Assembly (NCBI GenBank): GCA_019188255.1
Contig: JAETXT010000001.1
Coordinates: 6,758,001-6,822,000 of the forward strand
Source: Verticillium longisporum
Lineage: Eukaryota > Ascomycota > Sordariomycetes > Glomerellales > Plectosphaerellaceae
DNA length: 64,000 nt
Direction of reading: 5' to 3'
Positions within the stretch are counted from its first letter, which is position 1, and each line of letters begins with the position of its first letter. A program made the translations under genes and the position numbers. Below the pieces are notes generated by a model, which saw nothing but the letters and a program-made list of their open reading frames with translations, made no database searches and was not told where the DNA came from. This document shows, in pieces, positions 26,686-40,019 of this stretch.

Positions 26686-27164
26686 TATTACGACCTAGTA
26701 GCTTCCGAAGGGGGAACACTATTAGAAGGGGTTAGGGTTATTATTTAATAGAAGCTTAGGTTATAACTCTAAGACGATATAGTGTCGTAAGGCGTTACGC
26801 ACTCATTATAATGAATATAAAGTAAGACTTAGATTAATTACTATCGTAAGAAAGAATATATCTATAAGTCTAGAATATCCATCCTTATATACCTATTATC
26901 CTATCCTTATTATATTAGGTAGTAAGCTTATATTAGATAGCTTACTAGTTAGTTATTAGTGATTTATAATATTAGGATTATAGTATATTATCCTATAAAT
27001 TATTCCCTAGCTTATTATAGCGTCCTTAGTAAGCCCGATAATTTACTTTTTATATCTAAGTAAGCTATTATATAATTTATTAAATAAGCCCGATTCTTAT
27101 CTTATTACGCTCCTTAATTATAGGGTCGTCGATTCGTAGCTACCCTATTTCCTTAATTATTATA
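26686..27164 (-). repeat. LTR of the RIPped gypsy element (plus-strand left)
   Basis: Begins tattacgacc and ends attata, RIP-altered forms of TGTTACGACC and GTTACA. 479 bp, clearly related to the 453-bp LTR of the intact element in its first 200 bp. Confidence 0.88.
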
Positions 27165-27900
27165 TAATACTCCTCCTCTAGGCCGATATCTTAGTAGCTA
27201 TAAATAGTAAATCCTAGCCGCTTATAGTAATTCTTCTCTTATTATCTTTATTAACTATAATAAAATATTAAATCGTATTATAAAACGTTTATCTATTAAA
27301 ACCGATTAAAGAAAAGCGCTCGTTACTTTAATTAATTCCGAGAACGAAATTAGGATATTTTATATAGAGTACTTTAAGCGATATCTTATCTATAAGACCG
27401 CCCTTAGTTCTTCTCGCTATAAGGAGTATATCTATCGTAATCGCTCTTATAATAATATAAATATAGTTTCTATATATAAGTTAGTCCTTAATAGGGTTAT
27501 AGCCCTATTTTCTAATAATCGTTTAGTAGAAAAGGCTCTTATAAAATAGAAGAAGCGAGAGGCTAAGATTAAGGATATTAAAATAGAGTTAGAGGTACTC
27601 TAAATAAAGTTAGCGATAGCTTTAAGTTATTTATCCCGTCTTCGTAAGATATAGAAAGCGGCGAAGGCTTATAAGGAAGAGTTATTTATTCGTAGGATTC
27701 GTTAATTAGATAAGGAGGATAACGTCCTTCCTCTAAGTAGGGATAACCTAAGCCTCGAGGCTTAAGAGGCTAATATAGTATAGGACCTTTAGGAGTAAAG
27801 TATTAATAGTATTATAGATTAATCCTCGTTAGGCTTTAGGGAGGAATTTTCCGACCTTAATCCTATATTAAACGATAATATTCTTAGAATAATTATAAAT
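27165..27900 (+). pseudogene. RIP-degraded antisense ORF with a Zn2Cys6-like pattern
   Basis: This sits at the position equivalent to the antisense gene of the intact element. In the frame starting at 27361, six tyrosine codons at 27361, 27370, 27391, 27418, 27427 and 27448 have the spacing X2-X6-X8-X2-X6. That is exactly the spacing of the six cysteines in the intact copy, and TGT/TGC to TAT/TAC is what RIP of CpA on the other strand produces. Local context also matches (SSRYKEYIYRNRSY against SARCGECVKRGRQC). Downstream, remains such as LSYLSRLRKI and IRRIR*LDKEDNVLPL align with the coiled-coil part (VNRLRRIRQI, RRGIQELDEEDSLLPA). Stops interrupt it, most from CAA/CAG or TGG codons. It encoded a diverged member of the same protein type. 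Confidence 0.75.
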
Positions 27901-30900
27901 AATTTAAGTTCTTAATTAATTCCTATATATTTTCTTTATATTTATAATTCTTCTATTTAATTAAGTATTCTTCTTATTTACTTATTTTTCTATAATCGAG
28001 GATTCTTTCGACTTTATATTTATTAATATTTTTAATTTCTACGTTTATTTCGAGTAATATATTATATAGTACTAGCTCTAGTAATATAATATAAAAAATA
28101 GGGTAAATCTTTATATTCTCTAGTAATAAGAGGTAATAGTTAATATCTAAGAGTTTTTTAAAATTTTTAAAAAGTTTTAGTTTTTTAAAATCTAATTTAT
28201 CGTTTAATCGTTTAGTTTTAATATTTTAGTAAATAAAGTAAATACTATCTCCCTCTTATAAAGATAATCCCTTTATCCTTATCTTTTTAGCGTATATAGT
28301 TATTTTAGTATATATAAGCTCGAGGTCGAGCTTAATTTAGTCCTAGATTTTATAGATATTAATTATAATATTAATCGCTTTTAGTATATTTAGTACTTTA
28401 TAGCGTTCTATATAAGCTATTAGGTTATACTTATAGTTAATATAAAAAAGTAATTCCTTTATTAATTCGCTTAGTAAGCTATTATATATAAATTATATAA
28501 TAAATAGTAATATAACCTAATTATCTTATTAATAGTTAATATAATATTAAAAGTACTATTCTAGAGTCTAGTTCGTTTTTTCTATCTATTTATCTATTTA
28601 TAGGTAAAAAGCTATAAATAGCTTATATTTAGCTCTAAATTAAGCGATAAGTAATTTCTAAAAGTTATTAATAAAGAGCTTATCTCTATCTAATATTAAT
28701 TCTTTTAAGAGTCTATATTATCCTATAATATTCCTAAGGAATATATAAATAAGGTCTTCTATTATTCCTATAGCTTTATATAGGAGAAAGTAGGAATATT
28801 TAATAAGTTAGTCGATAATTATTAAGATATTATCGTAAGAGGTCCTAATTAAGGGTTCCTTCGATAATAATAGGCTAATAATAAAGTCTAGTAAGATTAA
28901 CTCCTAGGCTATAGTTAGTATTAATAGTGCTTTAAGTTCTCTATAGGGCCTATATCTCTCTACTTTACTTTTCTTATAGAGGTTATAGTTACGGATTATT
29001 ACTATAACGTCCTATCTAATTCCTTTAAAATCGTAATATTTTCTAAATTAAGTGAATATTTTTACTACTCCTTAGTATCCGTAGGCCTTAGCCCCGTAGA
29101 CTTATTCGATAAGCTCTATAGTACTCTTAAATAGCTTAGCGGGTTTTATTTATATAGTAACTATTAAGGTACGGTAGTATAGGATTAGATTTCCTTCTTT
29201 ATTATTTATAAAGATCGTATTATTATTTAAGGGTATAATTTATTTATAGTCTAAGTATCTATTTAAGATATTTATTTTATTATTCTTAGATCTTTTATAA
29301 TAGATAATAATAAAGTTAAATTCCGAGAGGAATTTCGCTTATCTAATTTAGCGTTTATTAAGGTCTTTATTCGTTATAAAGTATATAAGATTCTTATAAT
29401 TAATATAGACCTTAACTTTATATTATACTCTAAAGAGATATATTCTTTATTCTTTAAAGGCTTCGATAATTATTATAAGTTCTTTATTATATATCTAATA
29501 ATTAAGTTCTAGTTTATATAGCTTTTTCGAGAAGAATATTACTAAATATAATCGTCCTTAATCGTCCTTTTAGCTTAATTATCCTTTAATAATGAAGTTA
29601 GAGGTATTTATCTCGATTTCTATAGGTTTTTCGGGGTCTATTATCCGGAGGACTAGCTCGCTAAGGATAATATCGATAATTTAACGAAATGCTTTTTCTT
29701 AGGGTTTATTCTATATAAACTCTATTTCCTTAATTATAAAGTTTATTAAAGGATTAATAATCTTATTATATCTTTTTAAGAATCGTTAATAGAAGTTAAT
29801 AAAACTAAGGAATACTTTAACGTCCTTAACGTTTTTTAATATAAACTATTCCTTAATAGCTACTATTTTAGATTTTTCTATCTTAATTTCTCCTAAAGTA
29901 ATTATATACCCTAGGAAATCTATTTCCTATATATAGAATTTAGCTTTTTTAAGCTCTATTAATAGCTCGTATTAGTATAGTTATATAAGGACCTAATAGA
30001 CGTATCCCTTATATTCTTCTATTATCTTCGAGAAAATTAAAATATTATTAAGGTATATTATTATAAAGACGTCTAAGAATTCTCGTAATATATCGTTAAT
30101 TATATTTTAGAAGGTTATAGAAGTATTAATTAATCTAAATAATATAATTAAATATTTATAATATCTTTATTATATTCGGAATATTATTTTCTATTCTTCT
30201 TTATCCTTAATATAGATAAGATTATATATTCCTTTAAGATCGAGTACTATAAATTAATTAGCTTTTATTAATATATCCCTAAGTTCTAATATTAGAGGTA
30301 ATAAGTAGTAATTCTTAATAATAATATCATTTAATTATTTATAATTAATATATAATCTTTCTTTATTATTCTTCTTTAATATAAAGAGAATTAAATATCC
30401 TATTAAGGATATCGATAATCGGATATATCCTTTTCTAAGATTCTCTTTAAAGTATTTATTAAGAGTATTTATCTATTAAGGGTTTAATCTATAGATTTTA
30501 TTAAATTAGGGGCTCTCCTTTTCCTTAATTAGGATTTCGTAATCGTAATATATATATTTAAGTAATACTATATCGACTTCTTCCCTAAAGATCTTTTCAT
30601 ATTTTTAATATTCTTTAAATACGTTCTATAGTCTTTCTTACTATTCTATTATAAGCTCCTCTAGGGTTATCTCCTCTAAGTTATCCTTATTTATAAAAGC
30701 TAATTAGAAGTCGCTTAAAAGACCGTTTATAGGTCTTTCCTTAAAAGCTAATATATTCTACTAGATATAGCTAGCTATCTAATTAATTTAAGGGTTCTAT
30801 TCTCTAAGCTATAGGATATTTAGGATAATTTATTTTCCTCCTATATTAATAATATCGAAGGTTATATAGTTAAGTCGGCGAGAAATAAATACCTAGAGGG

Positions 30901-31590
30901 GCGTAGTCTCTATATTTACGATTCCTCTTCTATACGAGACCGCTTATCCCTCTACTATATTAAGCTAATAGGGTTCCTCCTTATATTTCTAGCTAATATA
31001 GTTCTTATTAATATATTTAGGGCTTATATAATTACTCTAAATATTATTATCTAATAGCGTACTCGCTTATCTTCCTCTTATATTTATTTATATATAGAGG
31101 TAGTTTATATTATAGGTTTATTTAGCGGAGTAGATTACTCTTACTTCCTTTATTAATCGTTATCCCTATTCGATTAACGCTTACCTTTTCCCGAAGAGGA
31201 TAGTATAATAAATAGCTATATTATAGATAGTCCGTTTAAATTATCGTTCCTCTTATTATTCTTATAATAGATATAGAAGAGTAGCTTCTTAACGTCCTTT
31301 ATATAATAGAGTCTCTAATCTCTAGCTTTAGCGATATAATACTTTATATATATATTATTATTATAGTCCTCCTATTTAGTATTATCTTAATAATATTTAT
31401 CGTAATAAGCGGGGTCTAATTAGAATATAAGCCGACCTTAATTATATTCGTTTATATATAGGATCTATTTATAACTCTCCTATTCGAACTCTATTATTAT
31501 TTATAGCTCGATTTAGTAATTATATAGGAGAAATTAATATACGGCCTTCTCCTTAAAATAGTATTTATAATCGTCGTAGATATATTCGGG

Positions 31591-32043
31591 TGTTACGACC
31601 TGGCAGCTTCCGAAGGGGGAACACTGTCAGAGGGTTAGGGTTGCTGTTTGCAGAAGCTTAGGTTGTGACTCTGAGACGATGTGGTGTCGTAAGGCGTTGC
31701 GCACTCGTTACAATGGATACAAGGTAAGACTTAGATTGATCACTGTCGTGAGAAAGAATGTATCTACAAGTCCAGAATGTCCGTCCTTATATACCTGCCA
31801 TCCTGTCCTTGTTGTGTTAGGTGGTGAGCTCATGTTGGATGGCTCACTGTTATGTCGTGATCCTGTTATGTTGGATCACGGCTCACGGCGATCCAGGCAT
31901 AACAGTGATCCTTAGCCCTGGATCACTGTTCCTGGTGATCCCGTCACGTGACCTAGCCTTGGCGAGCCTTATCTTATCAGTGACCCTGGATCCTCTGACG
32001 TGGGGCTTGTCTGCGGCCGGTTGTTCGACCCGTGCTCGTTACA
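31591..32043 (-). repeat. LTR of the intact gypsy (3' LTR relative to gag-pol)
   Basis: 453 bp, TGTTACGACC...CTCGTTACA on the plus strand. It contains several tandem or inverted GGATCACTGTT/AACAGTGATCC motifs near 31840-31930. Besides ending gag-pol transcripts, it is the only upstream region available to drive the antisense ORF that starts at 32145. Confidence 0.95.
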
Positions 32044-32144
32044 TGATACTCCTCCTTCAGGCCGATGTCCCAACGGCCATAAGTAGTAGGTCCTGCCCCA
32101 GATTCGGTTGGTCCGCAAACTCCTCTTTTACTAACCGTGATACG

Positions 32145-32772
32145 ATGTCCAGTCGCATTCGAAAACCTCTGTCGAAGAAAACCGTTGAGCGCGTCAACCT
32201 TGCGTCTTCAATCGAGTCGAAGGGTTCTGACGCGGACATGCCTTGTACCTGGTGCTTCCGGAAAGGTTTGAAATGTCGTATGTCGGAGAAGTCTGCGCGG
32301 TGCGGGGAGTGTGTGAAGCGAGGTCGTCAGTGCGACGGTGTTTTGGTGTCGTCTTCTCGTGAGTATCGTGTTTTCCGCTGGTCAGGTTATCGTGGCTGAT
32401 GGTGGCTCAGTTGAGCGTCTTTCAAAAACCGAAAAGAAATTGGAAGATGACGAGGAGGCTGCGGAAGAAGCGCTGGCCAAATTGCAGGAGGATCTGTCGC
32501 ACGCCGTGAATCGCTTGCGGCGGATTCGGCAGATCAAGAAGAAGGTGAAGGAGCGTAGTGACGAGGCGTTTCGTCGGGGTATCCAGGAGCTGGACGAGGA
32601 GGACAGCTTGCTTCCTGCTCTCAATGCTCATGAGTATTATGTGGAGAGTGATTTGGCGTTTATGGGGGTGACTTCCGACGCGGATTGGCCCTCTTTGGGT
32701 TTGGGGGAGTTGCCGGAGGAGTCTGGTGTTGGTGAAACTGCCTCAGCAGCTGCGGGCAGTTCAAGTTCTTGA
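32145..32772 (+). CDS. Antisense spliced ORF: Zn2Cys6-spaced cysteine motif plus coiled coil
   Basis: Exons 32145-32358 and 32411-32772, with a 52-nt GTGAGT...CAG intron that joins ...VLVSSS to LERLSKTEKK in phase; 191 aa. Cysteines C34, C37, C44, C53, C56 and C63 give C-X2-C-X6-C-X8-C-X2-C-X6-C, inside the Gal4-type consensus. A basic N-terminus (RIRKPLSKK) precedes them. Residues about 75-130 are rich in Glu/Lys/Leu/Arg and should form a coiled coil (LEDDEEAAEEALAKLQEDL, RRIRQIKKKVKERSDEA); an acidic/Ser tail follows. The gene runs opposite to gag-pol, starts 101 bp inside the LTR, and its last 113 bp overlap the end of pol. From memory, similar short proteins recur in fungal gene sets near retroelements; no function is established to my knowledge. 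A DNA-binding or regulatory role is inference. The first ATG in frame after the LTR was chosen as start. Confidence 0.75.
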
Positions 32773-35700
32773 TTGGTTCCCATGTGTTTTCTTCGTGGCC
32801 GTAGTTCTTCCACTTAATGAGGTACTCGTCCTGGTTGTTCTTCGTTCTGTGGTCGATGATCCTTTCGACTTCATATTCGTTTGTGTCTTCTACTTCCACG
32901 CTGGTTGCGAGTGGTGCGTTCGGTGGTGCTGGTTCCAAAAGTGCTATGTGAAAAACGGGGTGAATCTTCATGTTCTCTGGCAATGAGAGGTGGTAGTTGG
33001 TATCCGGGAGTTTCTTGAGAATTTTAAAAGGTCCTAGTTTCTTGAAGTCCAGTTTGTCGTTTGGTCGTTTGGTTTTGATGTTTCGGCGGATAAGGTAGAC
33101 GCTACCTCCCTCCTGTAAGGATGGTCCCTTCATCCTTGTTTTGTTGGCGTACGTGGTCATTCTGGTACGTACGAGCTCGAGGTCGAGCTTGATCTGGTCC
33201 TGGATCTTGCGGATGCTGGCCGCAATGTTGGTTGCTTTTGGCGTGTCTGGTGCTTCGCGGCGTTCCGCGTAGGCTGTTGGGTTGTACCCATAGTTGGCAT
33301 AGAAGGGTGACTCCTTTGTGGACTCGCTTGGTGAGCTGTTGTATGCGAACTGTGCGATGGGTAGTAATGTGACCCAGTCATCTTGTTGGTAGTTGATATA
33401 ACACCGAAGGTACTGCTCTAGAGTCTGGTTCGTTCTTTCTGTCTGTCCGTCTGTCTGCGGGTGAAAAGCCGTGGATAGCTTATGTTTGGCTCCAAGTTGA
33501 GCGATGAGTGACTTCCAGAAGTTGCTGGTGAAGAGCTTGTCTCTATCTGACACCAGTTCTTTTGGGAGTCCGTGTTGTCCCACAATGTTCCTGAGGAACA
33601 CATAGGCGAGGTCTTCTGCCGTTCCTGTGGCTTTATACGGGAGAAAGTAGGAGTACTTGGTGAGTCGGTCGACGACTACTAGGATGTTGTCGTAAGAGGT
33701 CCCAGTTAAGGGTTCCTTCGATGGTGGCAGGCTGGTGATGAAGTCCAGTGAGACTGACTCCCAGGCTGCGGTTGGTACTGGTAGTGCTTTGAGTTCTCCA
33801 TAGGGCCTGTGTCTCTCTGCCTTGCTTTTCTTGCAGAGGTTGCAGTTGCGGATCACTGCTGTGACGTCCTGTCTGGTTCCTTTGAAGTCGTGATGTTTTC
33901 TGAGTCGGGCGAATGTTTTCGCTACTCCTTGGTGTCCGTGGGCCTTGGCCCCGTGGACTTGTTCGATGAGCTCTGTGGTGCTCTTGGGTGGCTTGGCGGG
34001 TTTTATTCGTGTGGTGACCGCCAAGGTACGGTGGTACGGGATTAGATTTCCTTCTTTGTCGCTTGCGAGGATTGCGTTATTGTTTGGGGGTGTGGTTTGT
34101 TCGTGGTCTGAGCGTCTGCTCAAGATATCTGCCCTGCCATTCTCAGATCCTTTGCGATAGATGATGGTGAAGTTGAATTCCGAAAGGAATTCTGCCCATC
34201 TTATTTGGCGTTTGTTGAGGTCTTTGTTCGTTGTGAAGTGTGCAAGATTTTTGTGGTCGGTGTAGACCTTGACTTCGTGTCGTGCTCCGGAGAGATACGT
34301 TCTCCATTCTTTGAAGGCTTCGATGATTGCCATGAGTTCTTTGTCGTGTATCTGATAATTGAGCTCTGGTCCGTGTAGCTTCTTCGAGAAGAACGCTACT
34401 GGGTGCAGGCGTCCTTGGTCGTCCCTTTGTCCTAACTGTCCTCCAATGGCGAAGTCGGAGGCATCTGTCTCGACTTCCATGGGTTTTTCGGGGTCTATCA
34501 TTCGGAGGACTGGTTCGCTGAGGACGGCATCGATAATTTGGCGAAATGCCTTTTCTTGGGGTTCGTTCCATGCGAACTCTATTTCCTTGACCGTGAGGCT
34601 CGTCAAAGGATTGGCAGTCTTGCTGTATCCTTTTAGGAATCGTCGGTAGAAGTTGACGAAACCGAGGAATGCTCTGACGTCCTTGACGTTCTTTGGTGTA
34701 GGCCATTCCCTGATGGCTGCCACTTTGGATTTTTCCATCCTGATTTCTCCTGGGGTGATCGTATACCCTAGGAAATCTACTTCCTGTGTGTGGAACTTGG
34801 CTTTTTCTGGTTCTACTAACAGCTCGTGCTGGTGTAGTCGTGTGAGGACCTGGTGGACGTGTCCCTTGTGTTCTTCCATTGTCTTCGAGAAGATCAGAAT
34901 GTCATCGAGATATACCACCACGAAGACGTCCAGGAATTCTCGCAGTACATCGTTGATCATGTTTTGGAAGGTTGCGGGGGCGTTGGTCAATCCGAATGGC
35001 ATGACCAAGTACTCGTAGTGTCCTCGTCGTGTTCGGAATGCCGTTTTCCATTCCTCTCCATCCTTGATGCGGATGAGGTTATATGCTCCTTTGAGATCGA
35101 GCGCTGTGAACCAATTGGCTCCTGCTAATGCGTCCCTGAGTTCTGATATCAGAGGCAATGGGTAGCAGTTCTTGATGGTAATGTCGTTCAACTGTCTGTA
35201 GTCGACGCATAGTCTTTCCTTGCCATTCTTCTTTGGCACAAAGAGAATCGGGTATCCTGCTGGGGATGTCGATGGTCGGATGTATCCTTTTCTGAGGTTC
35301 TCCTTGAGATACTCGTCGAGAGTATCCATCTGTCGAGGGTTCAATCCGTAGATCTTGTTGAATCGGGGGCTCTCTCCTTCCTTGATTGGGATTTCGTGGT
35401 CGTAGTGTGTGTGCTTAGGTAGCACCGTGTCGACTTCTTCCCTGAAGATCTTTTCGTACTTCCAGTATTCCTTGGGTACGTTCTGCAGTCTTTCTTGCTG
35501 TTCTGTTGTGAGCTCCTCCGGGGTTGTCTCCTCTGAGTTGTCCCTATTCGTGAGGGCTAGTTGGAGGTCGCTTGAGAGACCGCTCGTGGGTCTTTCCTCA
35601 GGGGCTGACGTACTCCACTGGACGCGGCCAGCTGTCCAGTCAATCTGAGGGTTCCATTGTCTGAGCCATGGGATGCCTAGGATGATTTGTTTTCCTCCCA

Positions 35701-36049
35701 TGTTGGTGATGTCGAAGGTTATGTGACCTTGACGGCGAGAGATGAACACCTGGAGGGGCGCAGTCTCCGTGTTCACGATCCCTCCTCCGTATGAGACCGC
35801 TTGTCCTTCCACCGTGCTGAGTTGATAGGGTTCCTCCTTATATTTCCATGTGATCTTATTCTTGTTGATGTATTCGGGGCTCATGTAGTTGCCCTGGGCG
35901 CCGCTGTCTAGTAGCGCGCTTGCCCATCGTCCTCCTACGTTTATTCTCACGTAGAGGTGATTCGTGCCGTGGGTTCGTTCGGCTGAGCAGATCGCTCTTA
36001 CTTCCTTCGTCGGTCGTTGTCCCTGTCCGACCGACGCTTGCCTTTTCCC
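32660..36049 (-). CDS. Pol polyprotein (PR-RT-RNaseH-IN-chromodomain)
   Basis: Open in the -1 frame relative to gag from within the overlap to 32660. There is no ATG at its head (the open frame starts at a GTG at 36076), so it must be made by frameshifting. Numbering from that GTG, 1138 aa: aspartic protease DSG at 57-59; reverse transcriptase with YLDD at 389-392; RNase H with TDAS at about 537-540; integrase zinc finger (HGH...CNLC, about 712-748); integrase DDE Asp778, Asp844, Glu880; GPY/F-like module (KLGPFKIL, about 1013-1020); and a chromodomain at about 1067-1117. The chromodomain keeps the three aromatic cage positions (Y1068, W1089, Y1092), as in HP1, so it could bind methylated H3K9. 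All catalytic residues are present and no stop interrupts it. Confidence 0.95.
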   Translation of the reverse strand, partial: GKRQASVGQGQRPTKEVRAICSAERTHGTNHLYVRINVGGRWASALLDSGAQGNYMSPEYINKNKITWKYKEEPYQLSTVEGQAVSYGGGIVNTETAPLQVFISRRQGHITFDITNMGGKQIILGIPWLRQWNPQIDWTAGRVQWSTSAPEERPTSGLSSDLQLALTNRDNSEETTPEELTTEQQERLQNVPKEYWKYEKIFREEVDTVLPKHTHYDHEIPIKEGESPRFNKIYGLNPRQMDTLDEYLKENLRKGYIRPSTSPAGYPILFVPKKNGKERLCVDYRQLNDITIKNCYPLPLISELRDALAGANWFTALDLKGAYNLIRIKDGEEWKTAFRTRRGHYEYLVMPFGLTNAPATFQNMINDVLREFLDVFVVVYLDDILIFSKTMEEHKGHVHQVLTRLHQHELLVEPEKAKFHTQEVDFLGYTITPGEIRMEKSKVAAIREWPTPKNVKDVRAFLGFVNFYRRFLKGYSKTANPLTSLTVKEIEFAWNEPQEKAFRQIIDAVLSEPVLRMIDPEKPMEVETDASDFAIGGQLGQRDDQGRLHPVAFFSKKLHGPELNYQIHDKELMAIIEAFKEWRTYLSGARHEVKVYTDHKNLAHFTTNKDLNKRQIRWAEFLSEFNFTIIYRKGSENGRADILSRRSDHEQTTPPNNNAILASDKEGNLIPYHRTLAVTTRIKPAKPPKSTTELIEQVHGAKAHGHQGVAKTFARLRKHHDFKGTRQDVTAVIRNCNLCKKSKAERHRPYGELKALPVPTAAWESVSLDFITSLPPSKEPLTGTSYDNILVVVDRLTKYSYFLPYKATGTAEDLAYVFLRNIVGQHGLPKELVSDRDKLFTSNFWKSLIAQLGAKHKLSTAFHPQTDGQTERTNQTLEQYLRCYINYQQDDWVTLLPIAQFAYNSSPSESTKESPFYANYGYNPTAYAERREAPDTPKATNIAASIRKIQDQIKLDLELVRTRMTTYANKTRMKGPSLQEGGSVYLIRRNIKTKRPNDKLDFKKLGPFKILKKLPDTNYHLSLPENMKIHPVFHIALLEPAPPNAPLATSVEVEDTNEYEVERIIDHRTKNNQDEYLIKWKNYGHEENTWEPIKNLNCPQLLRQFHQHQTPPATPPNPKRANPRRKSPP

Positions 36050-37941
36050 GAAGGCGGCGGCGTGGTAGGTGGCCACGTTGTGTTTAGATTGCTTGGGTCG
36101 AGGTTGTCGTCGTCCTTATAATGGACCCTGAAGAGTGGCTTCTTGACGTGTTTCATACGGTGAAGCCTCCAATCTCTGGCCTTGGCCATATAGTGCTTTA
36201 TGCACGCGTCATTATCGCAGTCCTCCCATCTGGCATGGTCTTGGTAGCATTTGTCGTGATAAGCGGGGTCTGGTCGGAACGTGAGCCGACCTTGACTGTA
36301 TTCGTCCATGTGTAGGATCCATTTGCGACTTTCCTGTTCGAACTCTACCGTTACTCGTGGCTCGGTCCAGTGGTTGCGCGGGAGAAACCGGTGCGCGGCT
36401 TTCTCTTTGAAATGATATTCGCAGTCGTCGTAGACACATTCGGGCCAAAACAACTGATAGTGTTGTTCGTGGGCGTGGTGGAGTGCTGGATGGTCTCCTA
36501 CCATGAGTCGTACGTTTTCTTTCGTGCTTTCTTGCTTTCGGGCGCTGGCCTTCCATGGCTTGGTCCCGTAGTAGATGAGTTCGTCCCACGGTACAAGGGG
36601 ATCGTAATCCTCACTAGGGTTGCTAACGGCGTAGGTCTGTGTTGGGATGTGGAGTTGAAGTTGTCCCAACGGGGGTTCCTCCTCCTGGCTTGCTTGCGTG
36701 TATTCGTCCCATTCCTCGTTGCTCATAAGTCCAACGTGGAGTGCGGCCTGTGGTTCCGGGTGAGCTTGTTCATAAGCCCTTTCTTCGTCTGTATCGATTT
36801 CCTGGGTCTCCGGCGTTACTTGCTGGGCCCATTTCTGAATTCGTCTTTCCTTCCTGGTGGTGACCATCATGGCCAGGGTTCTTTGTCCCGTAGGTGCCCT
36901 GGGGAACCATCCATTCTGTTCCTTACTGTCCTTGTGGGTCAGGCAATCATCCTGGTAACAGAAGGTCCAGTTAGTTTTGGCATGGTCCTGGTGTTGAGTA
37001 TGGTTGAGCTGTCGTTCGTTTACGGGTTTCCAGGGCTTCTTAGGTTGCCGGCATTCTCGAGCCATATGCCCGTTTTTGCCGCAGTTGTAGCATTTCATGT
37101 CCTTGAGATCCTTCGGTTTGCCATGTCTGGTATTGTCGAGCTCCATGGGTCCTGCATGGGTGGTCTGTCCCCAAGCCGTGCTGACGCGGGGTTTGTCGTG
37201 CTGGTACTTGCGTCCTTGATTGGATCGGTGGTGGGGAATGCGAGGGTTCCATGGTCCTATAGCGGGCTTTCGTCCCTTTTCTATTCTGCGTTCGTACTGG
37301 CGATCGTCGATTTTGACGGCCATGGCGATGTACTCGGTGAGGGTTTCGGGTCTATCCTCCCGGATGAGGTCGTCCTTGACGGCGTCTTTGAGTCCTTCGT
37401 AGAAGCGGGCCATGAGAGCGGACTCTGTCCAATCGAGTCGACTGGCTAAGAGTCGAAACTCCGTGGCGTACTTAGTGGCTGGCCCGGTCTGTTTGAGCTG
37501 AAGGATTTTTCTTTCGTTTTGTCGTTCCTCGTCCACGTCCCCAAACGCTCCTTTAATGGCTTCTTCGAATGCGTTCATACCTGCGTAGATGTCCTGGGTG
37601 GCCTGCTTCATATCTTCTTTCTTGGTGTGGGTGGAATAGTCCCTAATGAAGGGTTCGAACCAGTGCAAGGCGTCCCCTTTGAGGTAAGAGGAGGCGTTGG
37701 CGACCTTCTCGCCCCAGTACTTAAGTTGGCCCTCATTGGCTTTGTGGTACTGGCGTACCTGGGTGATGAAAGACTGAAGTGCCCTAGGGTTGCCGTCGAA
37801 TGACTGAGGGGGAAGAGCCTTCATGCTCGTTCCGCCTTGAAGTTGTTGCATTGAGGCTCGGAGCTGTTCGTTCTCCGAACGGAGCTCCTGGATCATAGCG
37901 GCCAAGTTGCTGGCGCTGTTTCCGACGCTGTTGGTGGACAT
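35998..37941 (-). CDS. Gag polyprotein
   Basis: 647 aa from ATG 37941. Residues 13-36 are a short coiled coil (IQELRSENEQLRASMQQLQ). The retrotransposon Gag/capsid domain spans about 70-215 (FIRDYSTHTKKEDM, RFYEGLKDAVKDDLI). A CCHC knuckle lies at 284-297 (CYNCGKNGHMAREC). The long acidic, Trp/His/Tyr-rich C-terminal region (about 310-620) is unusual in length and has repeated H-X-W and DDC-type motifs (YQDDCLTHK, YDDCEYHF, WEDCDNDACIKH) whose role is unknown. It ends in a basic tail (GKGKRRSDRDNDRRRK) in the overlap with pol. Packages the RNA in virus-like particles. Confidence 0.93.
   Translation of the reverse strand: MSTNSVGNSASNLAAMIQELRSENEQLRASMQQLQGGTSMKALPPQSFDGNPRALQSFITQVRQYHKANEGQLKYWGEKVANASSYLKGDALHWFEPFIRDYSTHTKKEDMKQATQDIYAGMNAFEEAIKGAFGDVDEERQNERKILQLKQTGPATKYATEFRLLASRLDWTESALMARFYEGLKDAVKDDLIREDRPETLTEYIAMAVKIDDRQYERRIEKGRKPAIGPWNPRIPHHRSNQGRKYQHDKPRVSTAWGQTTHAGPMELDNTRHGKPKDLKDMKCYNCGKNGHMARECRQPKKPWKPVNERQLNHTQHQDHAKTNWTFCYQDDCLTHKDSKEQNGWFPRAPTGQRTLAMMVTTRKERRIQKWAQQVTPETQEIDTDEERAYEQAHPEPQAALHVGLMSNEEWDEYTQASQEEEPPLGQLQLHIPTQTYAVSNPSEDYDPLVPWDELIYYGTKPWKASARKQESTKENVRLMVGDHPALHHAHEQHYQLFWPECVYDDCEYHFKEKAAHRFLPRNHWTEPRVTVEFEQESRKWILHMDEYSQGRLTFRPDPAYHDKCYQDHARWEDCDNDACIKHYMAKARDWRLHRMKHVKKPLFRVHYKDDDNLDPSNLNTTWPPTTPPPSGKGKRRSDRDNDRRRK
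36008..36049 (-). promoter_or_regulatory. -1 ribosomal frameshift signal at the gag-pol junction
   Basis: Read on the minus strand: heptamer GGGAAAA (36049-36043) lies in the gag frame as TCG GGA AAA, i.e. the N-NX-XXY-YYZ register required for -1 slippage. Then come a 6-nt spacer (GGCAAG) and a perfect 9-bp stem, CGTCGGTCG (36036-36028) with CGACCGACG (36016-36008), with an 11-nt loop. The gag stop TAA follows at 36000-35998. After slippage the codons are GGG AAA AGG, exactly the pol frame. The RIPped relative keeps the heptamer (31186-31192) and most of the stem. Confidence 0.85.
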
Positions 37942-38004
37942 TGTTCCTGTGGTAAGTATTGCTCAGTGTCACAAGGTAAACCTACTGAACAAGAGTGATC
38001 AAAA

Positions 38005-38457
38005 TGTTACGACCTGGCAGCTTCCGAAGGGGGAACACTGTCAGAGGGTTAGGGTTGCTGTTTGCAGAAGCTTAGGTTGTGACTCTGAGACGATGTGGTG
38101 TCGTAAGGCGTTGCGCACTCGTTACAATGGATACAAGGTAAGACTTAGATTGATCACTGTCGTGAGAAAGAATGTATCTACAAGTCCAGAATGTCCGTCC
38201 TTATATACCTGCCATCCTGTCCTTGTTGTGTTAGGTGGTGAGCTCATGTTGGATGGCTCACTGTTATGTCGTGATCCTGTTATGTTGGATCACGGCTCAC
38301 GGCGATCCAGGCATAACAGTGATCCTTAGCCCTGGATCACTGTTCCTGGTGATCCCGTCACGTGACCTAGCCTTGGCGAGCCTTATCTTATCAGTGACCC
38401 TGGATCCTCTGACGTGGGGCTTGTCTGCGGCCGGTTGTTCGACCCGTGCTCGTTACA
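38005..38457 (-). repeat. LTR of the intact gypsy (5' LTR relative to gag-pol)
   Basis: 453 bp, indistinguishable by eye from 31591-32043. It would carry the promoter for the minus-strand gag-pol RNA. The gag start lies 63 bp inside. Confidence 0.95.
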
Positions 38458-40019
38458 TCGGGCTAGAATAACTAGTAGTATTATTTATAAGCGTAATAGA
38501 GTACTAAGTAGTCTCCTATTATAAATTATACGTTTTCTTTAATACTTTCTCGCTTTTAGGTATTAGCCTTCTATAATTAGGTCCTATAGTAGATAAGTTC
38601 GTTCTATAATATTAGGGGATTATAGTCCTTATTAGCGCTATTAACTTTATATATCTATATAAATATATAGAGCTAGATCTATCTAAGTGGAGATTCTTCT
38701 TCGTTAGCTCGTATATATTTATCCTATTCTATATTATTTATTAATCCTATATAAAGAGCTAATTATAATTCTAAGTAAATATATTTATAAGCTCTTTCCT
38801 TATCTATATCGATTTCCTAGGTCTCGGGTATTACTTATTAAGCCTATTTCTGGATACGTTTATCTTTCTTCGTAATTATTATTATAGCTAGGGTTCGTTA
38901 TCCTATAAGCGCCCTAAGGAACTATCTATTCTACTCCTTACTATCCTTATATATAAAATAGCTATCCTAATAATAAAAGGTCTAGTTAGTATTAGTATAG
39001 TTCTAGTACTAGGTATAGTTAAGCTATTACTTATTAATAGGCTTCTAAGGCTTCTTTAGTTAATAATATTCGCGGGCTATATATTTATTTTTTTTATAAT
39101 CATAATACTTAATATCTTTAAAGTCTTTAGGTTTCCTATATCGAGTATTATCGAGTTCTATAGGTCCTAAATAAATAGTCTATCCCTAAGCTATATTAAT
39201 ATAAGGTTTATCGTATTAATATTTACGTCCTTAATTAGAATAATAATAGGGGATATATAGGTTCTAGGGTCTAATAATAAGCTTTCGTCCCTTTTCTATT
39301 TTTCGTTTATATTAGCGATTATCTATTTTAATAGCTATAACGATATACTTAATAAAGGTTTCGGGTCTATCCTCCTAGATAAGGTCGTCCTTAATAGCGT
39401 CCTTAAGTCCTTTATAGAAATAGGCTATAAGAGCGGACTTAGTTTAATTAAGTTAAGTAGCTAAGAATCGAAACTCCGTAGCGTATTTAATAGCTAGCCC
39501 TGTCTATTTAAATTAAAGGATCTTTCTTTTATTTTATTATTCTTTATCTATATCTCTAAACGCCCCTTTAATAGCTTCCTCGAATACGTTTATATTTATA
39601 TAGACGTCCTAAATAATCTATTTTATATCTTCCTTTTTAATATAAATAGAATAATCTCTAATAAAAGGTTTAAATTAATATAAAGCGTCCCTTTTAAGAT
39701 AAGAGGAGGTATTAGCGACTTTCTCGCCCTAATACTTAAGCTAGCCTTCGTTAACCTTCTAGTACTAGTATACCTAGGTAATAAAAGACTAAAATGCCCT
39801 AAGGTTATTATCGAATAGCTAAGGGGGAAGAGCTTTTATACTCGTTCCGCCTTAAAATTACTATATTAAGGCTCGTAGCTACTTATTCTCTAAGCGGAGC
39901 TCTTAGATTATAATAGCTAGGTTATTAGTACTATTTCCGATATTATTAATAGATATTATTCCTATAATAAGTATTACTTAATATTATAAAGTAAACCTAT
40001 TAAATAAGAATAATTAAAA

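Follow-up and report, generated by a model that had tools for sequence, protein, structure and literature searches.

An antisense gene with a zinc-cluster-like domain, and the distal U3 beside it, as a putative exchangeable cassette of a Verticillium chromovirus

The window, which is the whole stretch of 64,000 nucleotides of Verticillium longisporum that was analysed, contains a chromovirus (Ty3/gypsy) of 6867 bp on the minus strand, at positions 31591..38457, delimited by its LTRs, its target site duplication (TSD) and the domains of gag and pol. The 5 bp duplication TCGGG flanks the element at 31586-31590 and 38458-38462, and the two minus-strand LTRs, each of 453 bp, are identical: the 3' LTR lies at 31591..32043 and the 5' LTR at 38005..38457. 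Both long reading frames of the minus strand are open: gag, with a zinc knuckle, at 35998..37941, and pol, with protease, reverse transcriptase (RT), RNase H, integrase and chromodomain, at 32660..36076. The first-pass annotation called this chromovirus intact, and it is: gag and pol are open, the LTRs are identical and the TSD is present. What identifies it as a Ty3/gypsy chromovirus is the presence of gag, the order protease-RT-RNase H-integrase, the chromodomain, the LTRs and the short TSD. Comparison of LTR sequences places a TATA-box-like motif of the sense promoter, GGTATATAA, at 31787..31795 on the minus strand; a polypurine-tract-like GAAGGAGGAG, at 32049..32058 on the same strand, adjoins the 3' LTR, inside a block (about 32038-32087) that is conserved in all five families of the element introduced below.

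A second element, damaged by RIP, lies directly to the left (26688-31219). Its LTR starts at 26688, with 88% identity to 31593; remnants of a C-like antisense exon 2 lie at 27526-27858, of the end of pol at 27875-28063, and of the start of pol near 30653-31219. Between the loci L015 and L009, 159 of the 175 differences are G>A or C>T, with 121 of them at TG, and the damage of L015 is RIP.

On the plus strand, opposite gag-pol, the element encodes a product of 191 amino acids in two exons, at 32145..32358 and 32411..32772, the stop codon being at 32770-32772. Its ATG, at 32145, is 101 bp inside of the LTR, which ends at 32043, and its last 113 bp (32660-32772) overlap the end of pol, both as first described. 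Between the exons lies very probably an intron, judging by its signals, of 52 nt and of phase 1, at 32359..32410, with donor GTGAGT, a single branch-like CTGAT and acceptor CAG. The GT-AG intron that the first-pass annotation drew to join two frames thus has the coordinates that it gave, and four families have it at a common site.

The first exon encodes a mildly basic N-terminus and a zinc-cluster-like domain. The six cysteines, whose codons fall within 32244-32333, are at residues 34, 37, 44, 53, 56 and 63, which reads directly as C-X2-C-X6-C-X8-C-X2-C-X6-C, the spacing first reported. The range for Zn(II)2Cys6 (Gal4-type) domains is C-X2-C-X6-C-X(5-12)-C-X2-C-X(6-8)-C, and the six cysteines of all six aligned sequences, namely the five families and a single-copy relative, L040, fit it. 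Five of these were scanned with the Pfam model Zn_clus (PF00172), whose cut-off is 21 bits: the window's family A and its sister A2 score 13.1, family D scores 11.0, and family B and L040 are not listed as matches. Since the scores stay below the cut-off, we name the product zinc-cluster-like and do not file it as a Zn(II)2Cys6 member; the spacing and its conservation speak for the domain that was first proposed, and the Pfam score speaks against it. The predicted structure of this exon is weak as well (pLDDT 62.9, best Foldseek E-value 0.26). Across the genome, among the best 41 of 150 Zn_clus matches, 28 share both E-value and bits with another, and such equal-score pairs are expected of a hybrid genome.

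The second exon encodes a long helix followed by an acidic C-terminus. Its model has a pLDDT of at least 90 for 56 of 119 residues, and predicts the coiled-coil segment noticed in the first reading as one single helix, at residues 2-83. From DEED onward, the tails of families A, A2, B and C have 13-16 acidic residues and 0-1 basic ones, and a motif DW(S/P)xxG occurs in the acidic tail of these four and of L040. The data thus support an antisense gene with a zinc-cluster-like N-terminus and a long helix.

Is this gene more than an open frame? The genome searched (72 Mb in 16 contigs) contains 62 matches to exon 1 at E-values up to 1, and 74 to the exon 2 of a sister family. The undamaged copies sort into five families: A, to which the element of the window belongs, with 4 copies, A2 with 2, B with 3, C with 11 and D with 11. 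Within each family, the copies that were read (22, including only two of the 11 D copies) are identical to the family's first over 660 nt of the reading frame. Comparisons between families, with the codons that overlap pol excluded, give 67 synonymous and 22 nonsynonymous differences for A versus A2, and 33 and 5 for B versus C, or dN/dS ratios of 0.046 and 0.038. The ratios are low in exon 1 and exon 2 alike (0.054 and 0.039 for A-A2; 0.030 and 0.045 for B-C), and when the changes of each pair were scattered at random 2000 times, the nonsynonymous share never came out as low, in either pair. Values well below 1 outside the overlap are one outcome for which the first-pass annotation had called; another is that the six cysteines are kept in A, A2, B, C, D and L040. 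The intron, for its part, is at the identical site in A (52 nt), A2 (62), B (49), C (51) and L040 (54), with the common signals GT(G/A)AGT...CTRAY...YAG; in family D, an open frame requires another acceptor, and an intron of 72 nt.

The gene is also a regular companion of this pol. The last 70 residues of pol match 98 places at E-values up to 1e-6: the antisense gene is within 1.3 kb at 31 of the 31 stop-free related pol ends, and is adjacent at 45 of the 62 related ends with stops. At the sensitivity used, it was found at none of five pol ends of another chromovirus, of 46% identity. A chance reading frame is ruled out by the dN/dS ratios and the intron site held in common; an artefact of the overlap with pol is ruled out too, since the overlapping codons were omitted and exon 1 also shows the signal. 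Judged from these substitution patterns, the conserved cysteines and the presence beside related pol ends, this is a real, strongly conserved protein gene of the chromovirus, as first suggested.

Two further loci bear relatives of it. The relative L040 (1007-1561; G000:C4:228400) is open and has the same intron site; a match to pol is absent from its 3-kb locus, and a BTB-like frame, recognised by eye, adjoins it. It may have been domesticated from an element or be related to the gene's donor, and with it the captured host gene suggested in the first-pass annotation stays a possible origin. Locus L039 (1001-1600) is a rearranged element in which, by eye, a D-type exon 1 and gag sequence are fused in one orientation.

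We now compare the five families along the element. In bins of 100 bp, the U5 side of the LTR is 96-100% identical across families over its initial 200 bp, and pol, from 100 bp past the antisense gene, is 85-100% identical. Between these lies a hypervariable cassette made of the distal U3 and the antisense gene, at approximately 31848..32772, whose bins fall to 35-63% identity in all pairs of families except A-A2 and B-C; less variable are the block with the polypurine tract, at 65-74%, and the end of the antisense gene, at 73-77%. The two regions give very different synonymous distances, with the caution that the cassette is difficult to align at such divergence: dS is 1.57 in the cassette and 0.031 in pol for A2-B, 1.40 and 0.15 for A-C, 1.75 and 0.17 for A-D, and 0.37 and 0.45 for B-C.

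The corresponding trees are incongruent. That of the cassette groups A with A2 and B with C, and that of pol groups A2 with B and A with C, all with support of 99-100. For groups that were picked after inspection of the identity bins between families, the cassette rejects A2+B (p-AU 7e-71) and A+C (p-AU 1.5e-77), and pol rejects A+A2 (p-AU 4.5e-65) and B+C (p-AU 6e-6). Fast evolution of the gene without exchange is ruled out by these tests together with the A2-B distances. The type of the U3 equals the type of the gene at 34 of 34 loci (with a near tie between B and C at L044), which amount in effect to about five lineages, because the copies are not independent.

These comparisons indicate that the cassette is exchanged between families as a module, the distal U3 and the antisense gene together. 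In retroviruses, a template switch at first strand transfer can supply the 3' end from the other RNA packaged in the particle; by analogy, exchange during reverse transcription would be a natural route for swapping a 3' end that contains both U3 and gene. More types of cassette may exist, since only 40 of 297 candidates were scored in the LTR scan for them. Another 19 LTRs, beside which the gene was not known to lie, are by eye all of the A or the C type, and a match to the antisense gene is absent from the 1.4 kb that was read of each (0.6 kb for L056). The LTR of L056, of type A and at the end of contig C8, passes straight into telomere repeats (TTAGGG), which looks like the formation of a telomere on an LTR that had been broken.

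What does the U3 half of the cassette contain? Unbiased counts of 7-mers on both strands of the U3 of each family, set against 300 shuffles, give GGATCAC as the commonest in A and A2, with 5 occurrences each, and GGCTCAC in B and C, also with 5 each; for none of these four U3s did any of the 300 shuffles attain such a count. In the U3 of family D, GGATCAC occurs 3 times, a number attained by 59 of 300 shuffles and not significant. The merged pattern GGNTCAC/GTGANCC, defined after the sequences were seen, occurs 8, 7, 7, 7 and 5 times in the U3 (228-271 bp) of A, A2, B, C and D, for an expectation of 0.2-0.3 per U3 (0.23 for A), and in each family 0 of 1000 shuffles reach the count. In the window, the resulting array spans 31841..31986, its eight repeats starting at 31841, 31857, 31873, 31880, 31905, 31920, 31935 and 31980, of which the copy at 31841 is within the part conserved in all families. 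Outside of U3, the pattern is absent from the R-U5 of family A, and the internal sequence, 5960 bp long, has four occurrences. The commonest 7-mer differs with the type of gene, A/A2 versus B/C, and so do letters in the cysteine loop. The usual target of zinc-cluster domains is CGG/CCG, which is enriched in none of the five U3s; on this ground we rejected CGG target sites for the product.

It is thus natural to conjecture that the product is a small dimeric DNA-binding regulator of its own element, which binds the array of its own U3, gene and sites being exchanged jointly; we give this somewhat better than even chances. The dimeric protein would combine a divergent domain of the zinc-cluster-like kind with a long coiled coil and a tail of acidic residues, and would be translated from a spliced antisense mRNA that would start in or near the 3' LTR. 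Its targets would be the GGNTCAC/GTGANCC half-sites that the LTRs of its own family have in U3. By binding them it would set how strongly the 5' LTR transcribes gag-pol and the 3' LTR transcribes the antisense gene itself. Activation seems likelier than repression, because of the acidic tail with its DW(S/P)xxG motif. The distal U3 and the gene would travel as one cassette in recombination, and pol and R-U5 would be freely exchanged: the two are proposed to move jointly because protein and sites must match. Among the roles listed in the first-pass annotation, regulation of the LTR promoter is the best supported, since the gene co-segregates with the array-bearing U3. It counts against this explanation that a neighbouring U3 and gene would stay linked through position alone, and that a host factor could be the binder of the array instead; the low Zn_clus scores, the weak model of exon 1, the U3s' lack of CGG enrichment and the non-significant 7-mer of family D count against it too.

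Family D complicates the matter. Compared with an older, RIP-damaged relative (L041), the D copy L037 has frame changes in the antisense gene that put the acidic tail out of frame. Over 660 nt, a second copy, L038, shows no difference from L037, and nine further D copies have the same open-frame pattern, with one exception. As a family with an altered gene has 11 copies, an intact protein seems not to be needed in cis; help in trans and loss of a repressor would both explain this abundance.

The second of these explanations leads to a reading in which the product is a repressor, which would bind the U3 array and limit gag-pol transcription from copies with the same cassette, as a control of copy number or an immunity. 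Swapping cassettes would then create new immunity groups, in the manner of lambdoid phages. The anatomy is identical to that of the activator, and the 11 copies of family D, with a gene that is altered and has lost its acidic tail from the frame in the examined copy, suit a repressor. However, family C, whose gene is open, also has 11 copies, identical over 660 nt, and the conserved DW motif of the acidic tail suits activation better. We regard repression as unlikely, though deserving of some weight.

A conserved protein that acts elsewhere, for example in chromatin, integration, nuclear import or on RNA, would make the covariation of U3 and gene a mere effect of adjacency, and the array a set of sites for host factors. 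The superfamily Tnt1 also has a hypervariable U3 beside a conserved coding region, as far as its description goes (PMC1838419); CACGTG-like and GATA-like sites can be seen by eye in the U3 of A, A2, B and C; and CGG lacks enrichment there. But the variable block spans both U3 and gene, and its commonest 7-mer shifts with the type of gene, so that we find this reading less plausible again. A last reading assigns the function to the antisense RNA across pol and LTR and not to a protein, for example as a source of double-stranded RNA, a role proposed generally for antisense transcripts of LTR elements (PMC7264820). It is already contradicted by protein-level selection, since dN/dS is near 0.04 in exon 1 and exon 2 alike, and by the preservation of the intron, and is extremely improbable here.

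Returning to the regulator of its own U3, the families themselves have probably been seen before. The elements VdLTRE2, VdLTRE3 and VdLTRE4 of Verticillium dahliae have LTRs of 476, 433 and 455 bp, total lengths of 6828-6935 bp, and GAG and POL that are 'nearly identical' for an overall identity of only 82.5% (Amyotte et al. 2012, PMC3441728, as are the statements on them below, for the part of the paper available). The LTR lengths are those of B/C (476) and D (433), with 455 against 453 for A, and VdLTRE4 further resembles family A in its length (6870 versus 6867 bp); RIP and an overlap of gag with pol are common to the published elements and to those described here. By these LTR and element lengths, the near-identical POL and the published description, we infer that A, B/C and D are VdLTRE4, VdLTRE2 and VdLTRE3; A2, with an LTR of 460 bp, has no counterpart among the three. 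The description gives GAG and POL domains only: we found no mention of an antisense gene, and the word 'antisense' occurs 0 times (PMC3441728). The same source reports ESTs for all three elements, almost every one of which aligns to at least two of them, and gives no strand for these ESTs. The overall identity of 82.5% could be due to a swapped cassette.

Antisense accessory genes, on the other hand, have precedents. Boty-like elements of Botrytis cinerea bear one, brtn (Zhao et al. 2011, as cited elsewhere), which, compared by position and description, is likewise antisense and placed after pol, ahead of the 3' LTR; these fungal elements, too, are Ty3/gypsy and have a chromodomain. The genes of the plant elements Grande (gene23), RIRE2, Retand (TRP28) and PvRetro13 have the same position and orientation, and nuclear or DNA-binding roles have been proposed for them; as far as their descriptions go, they encode other proteins, and a cassette joined to U3 is not reported. 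The first-pass annotation thought such a gene unusual for Ty3/gypsy elements, which is only half right, as these plant elements and Boty each have an antisense gene in that position. In the open-access literature searched, we found nothing direct on fungal LTR elements with an antisense gene of the zinc-cluster kind, and no antisense accessory gene tied to its own U3. Tnt1 is a Copia element, of another kind of LTR element. Its U3 distinguishes families, its coding region is conserved and its evolution is called 'modular', but its description, in the part available, is without a regulator gene (PMC1838419).

Outside of retrotransposons, HBZ of HTLV-1 is likewise antisense, is transcribed from a promoter in the 3' LTR and has a nuclear product, but it belongs to a retrovirus. 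Its splicing, coiled coil and mechanism are further parallels, the protein itself being a bZIP. Lambdoid phages swap the regulator and operators of their immunity regions as a block, and here the resemblance is an analogy only, between a retrotransposon and phages with unrelated proteins.

LTR retrotransposons are usually thought to depend on host factors for their transcription. The cassette may be the retrotransposon counterpart of a phage immunity region, with a self-coded regulator and its U3 operators in one block, so that families with near-identical gag and pol would be transcriptionally private, each copy responding to and governing no type but its own; we put this forward tentatively, as an analogy that falls short of being probable. 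The pairing of U3 and gene types predicts that each protein should prefer its own U3 to the U3s of the sister families. The unexpected part is the modular swap of U3 with an antisense gene. Antisense accessory genes and U3 modules are each known already, and in the open-access literature searched we found no report that combines them. An element with its own promoter-specific antisense regulator, strongly selected and swapped along with the matching promoter segment, would give a concrete answer to the role of antisense accessory genes, and would explain why the U3 diverges alongside a conserved pol.
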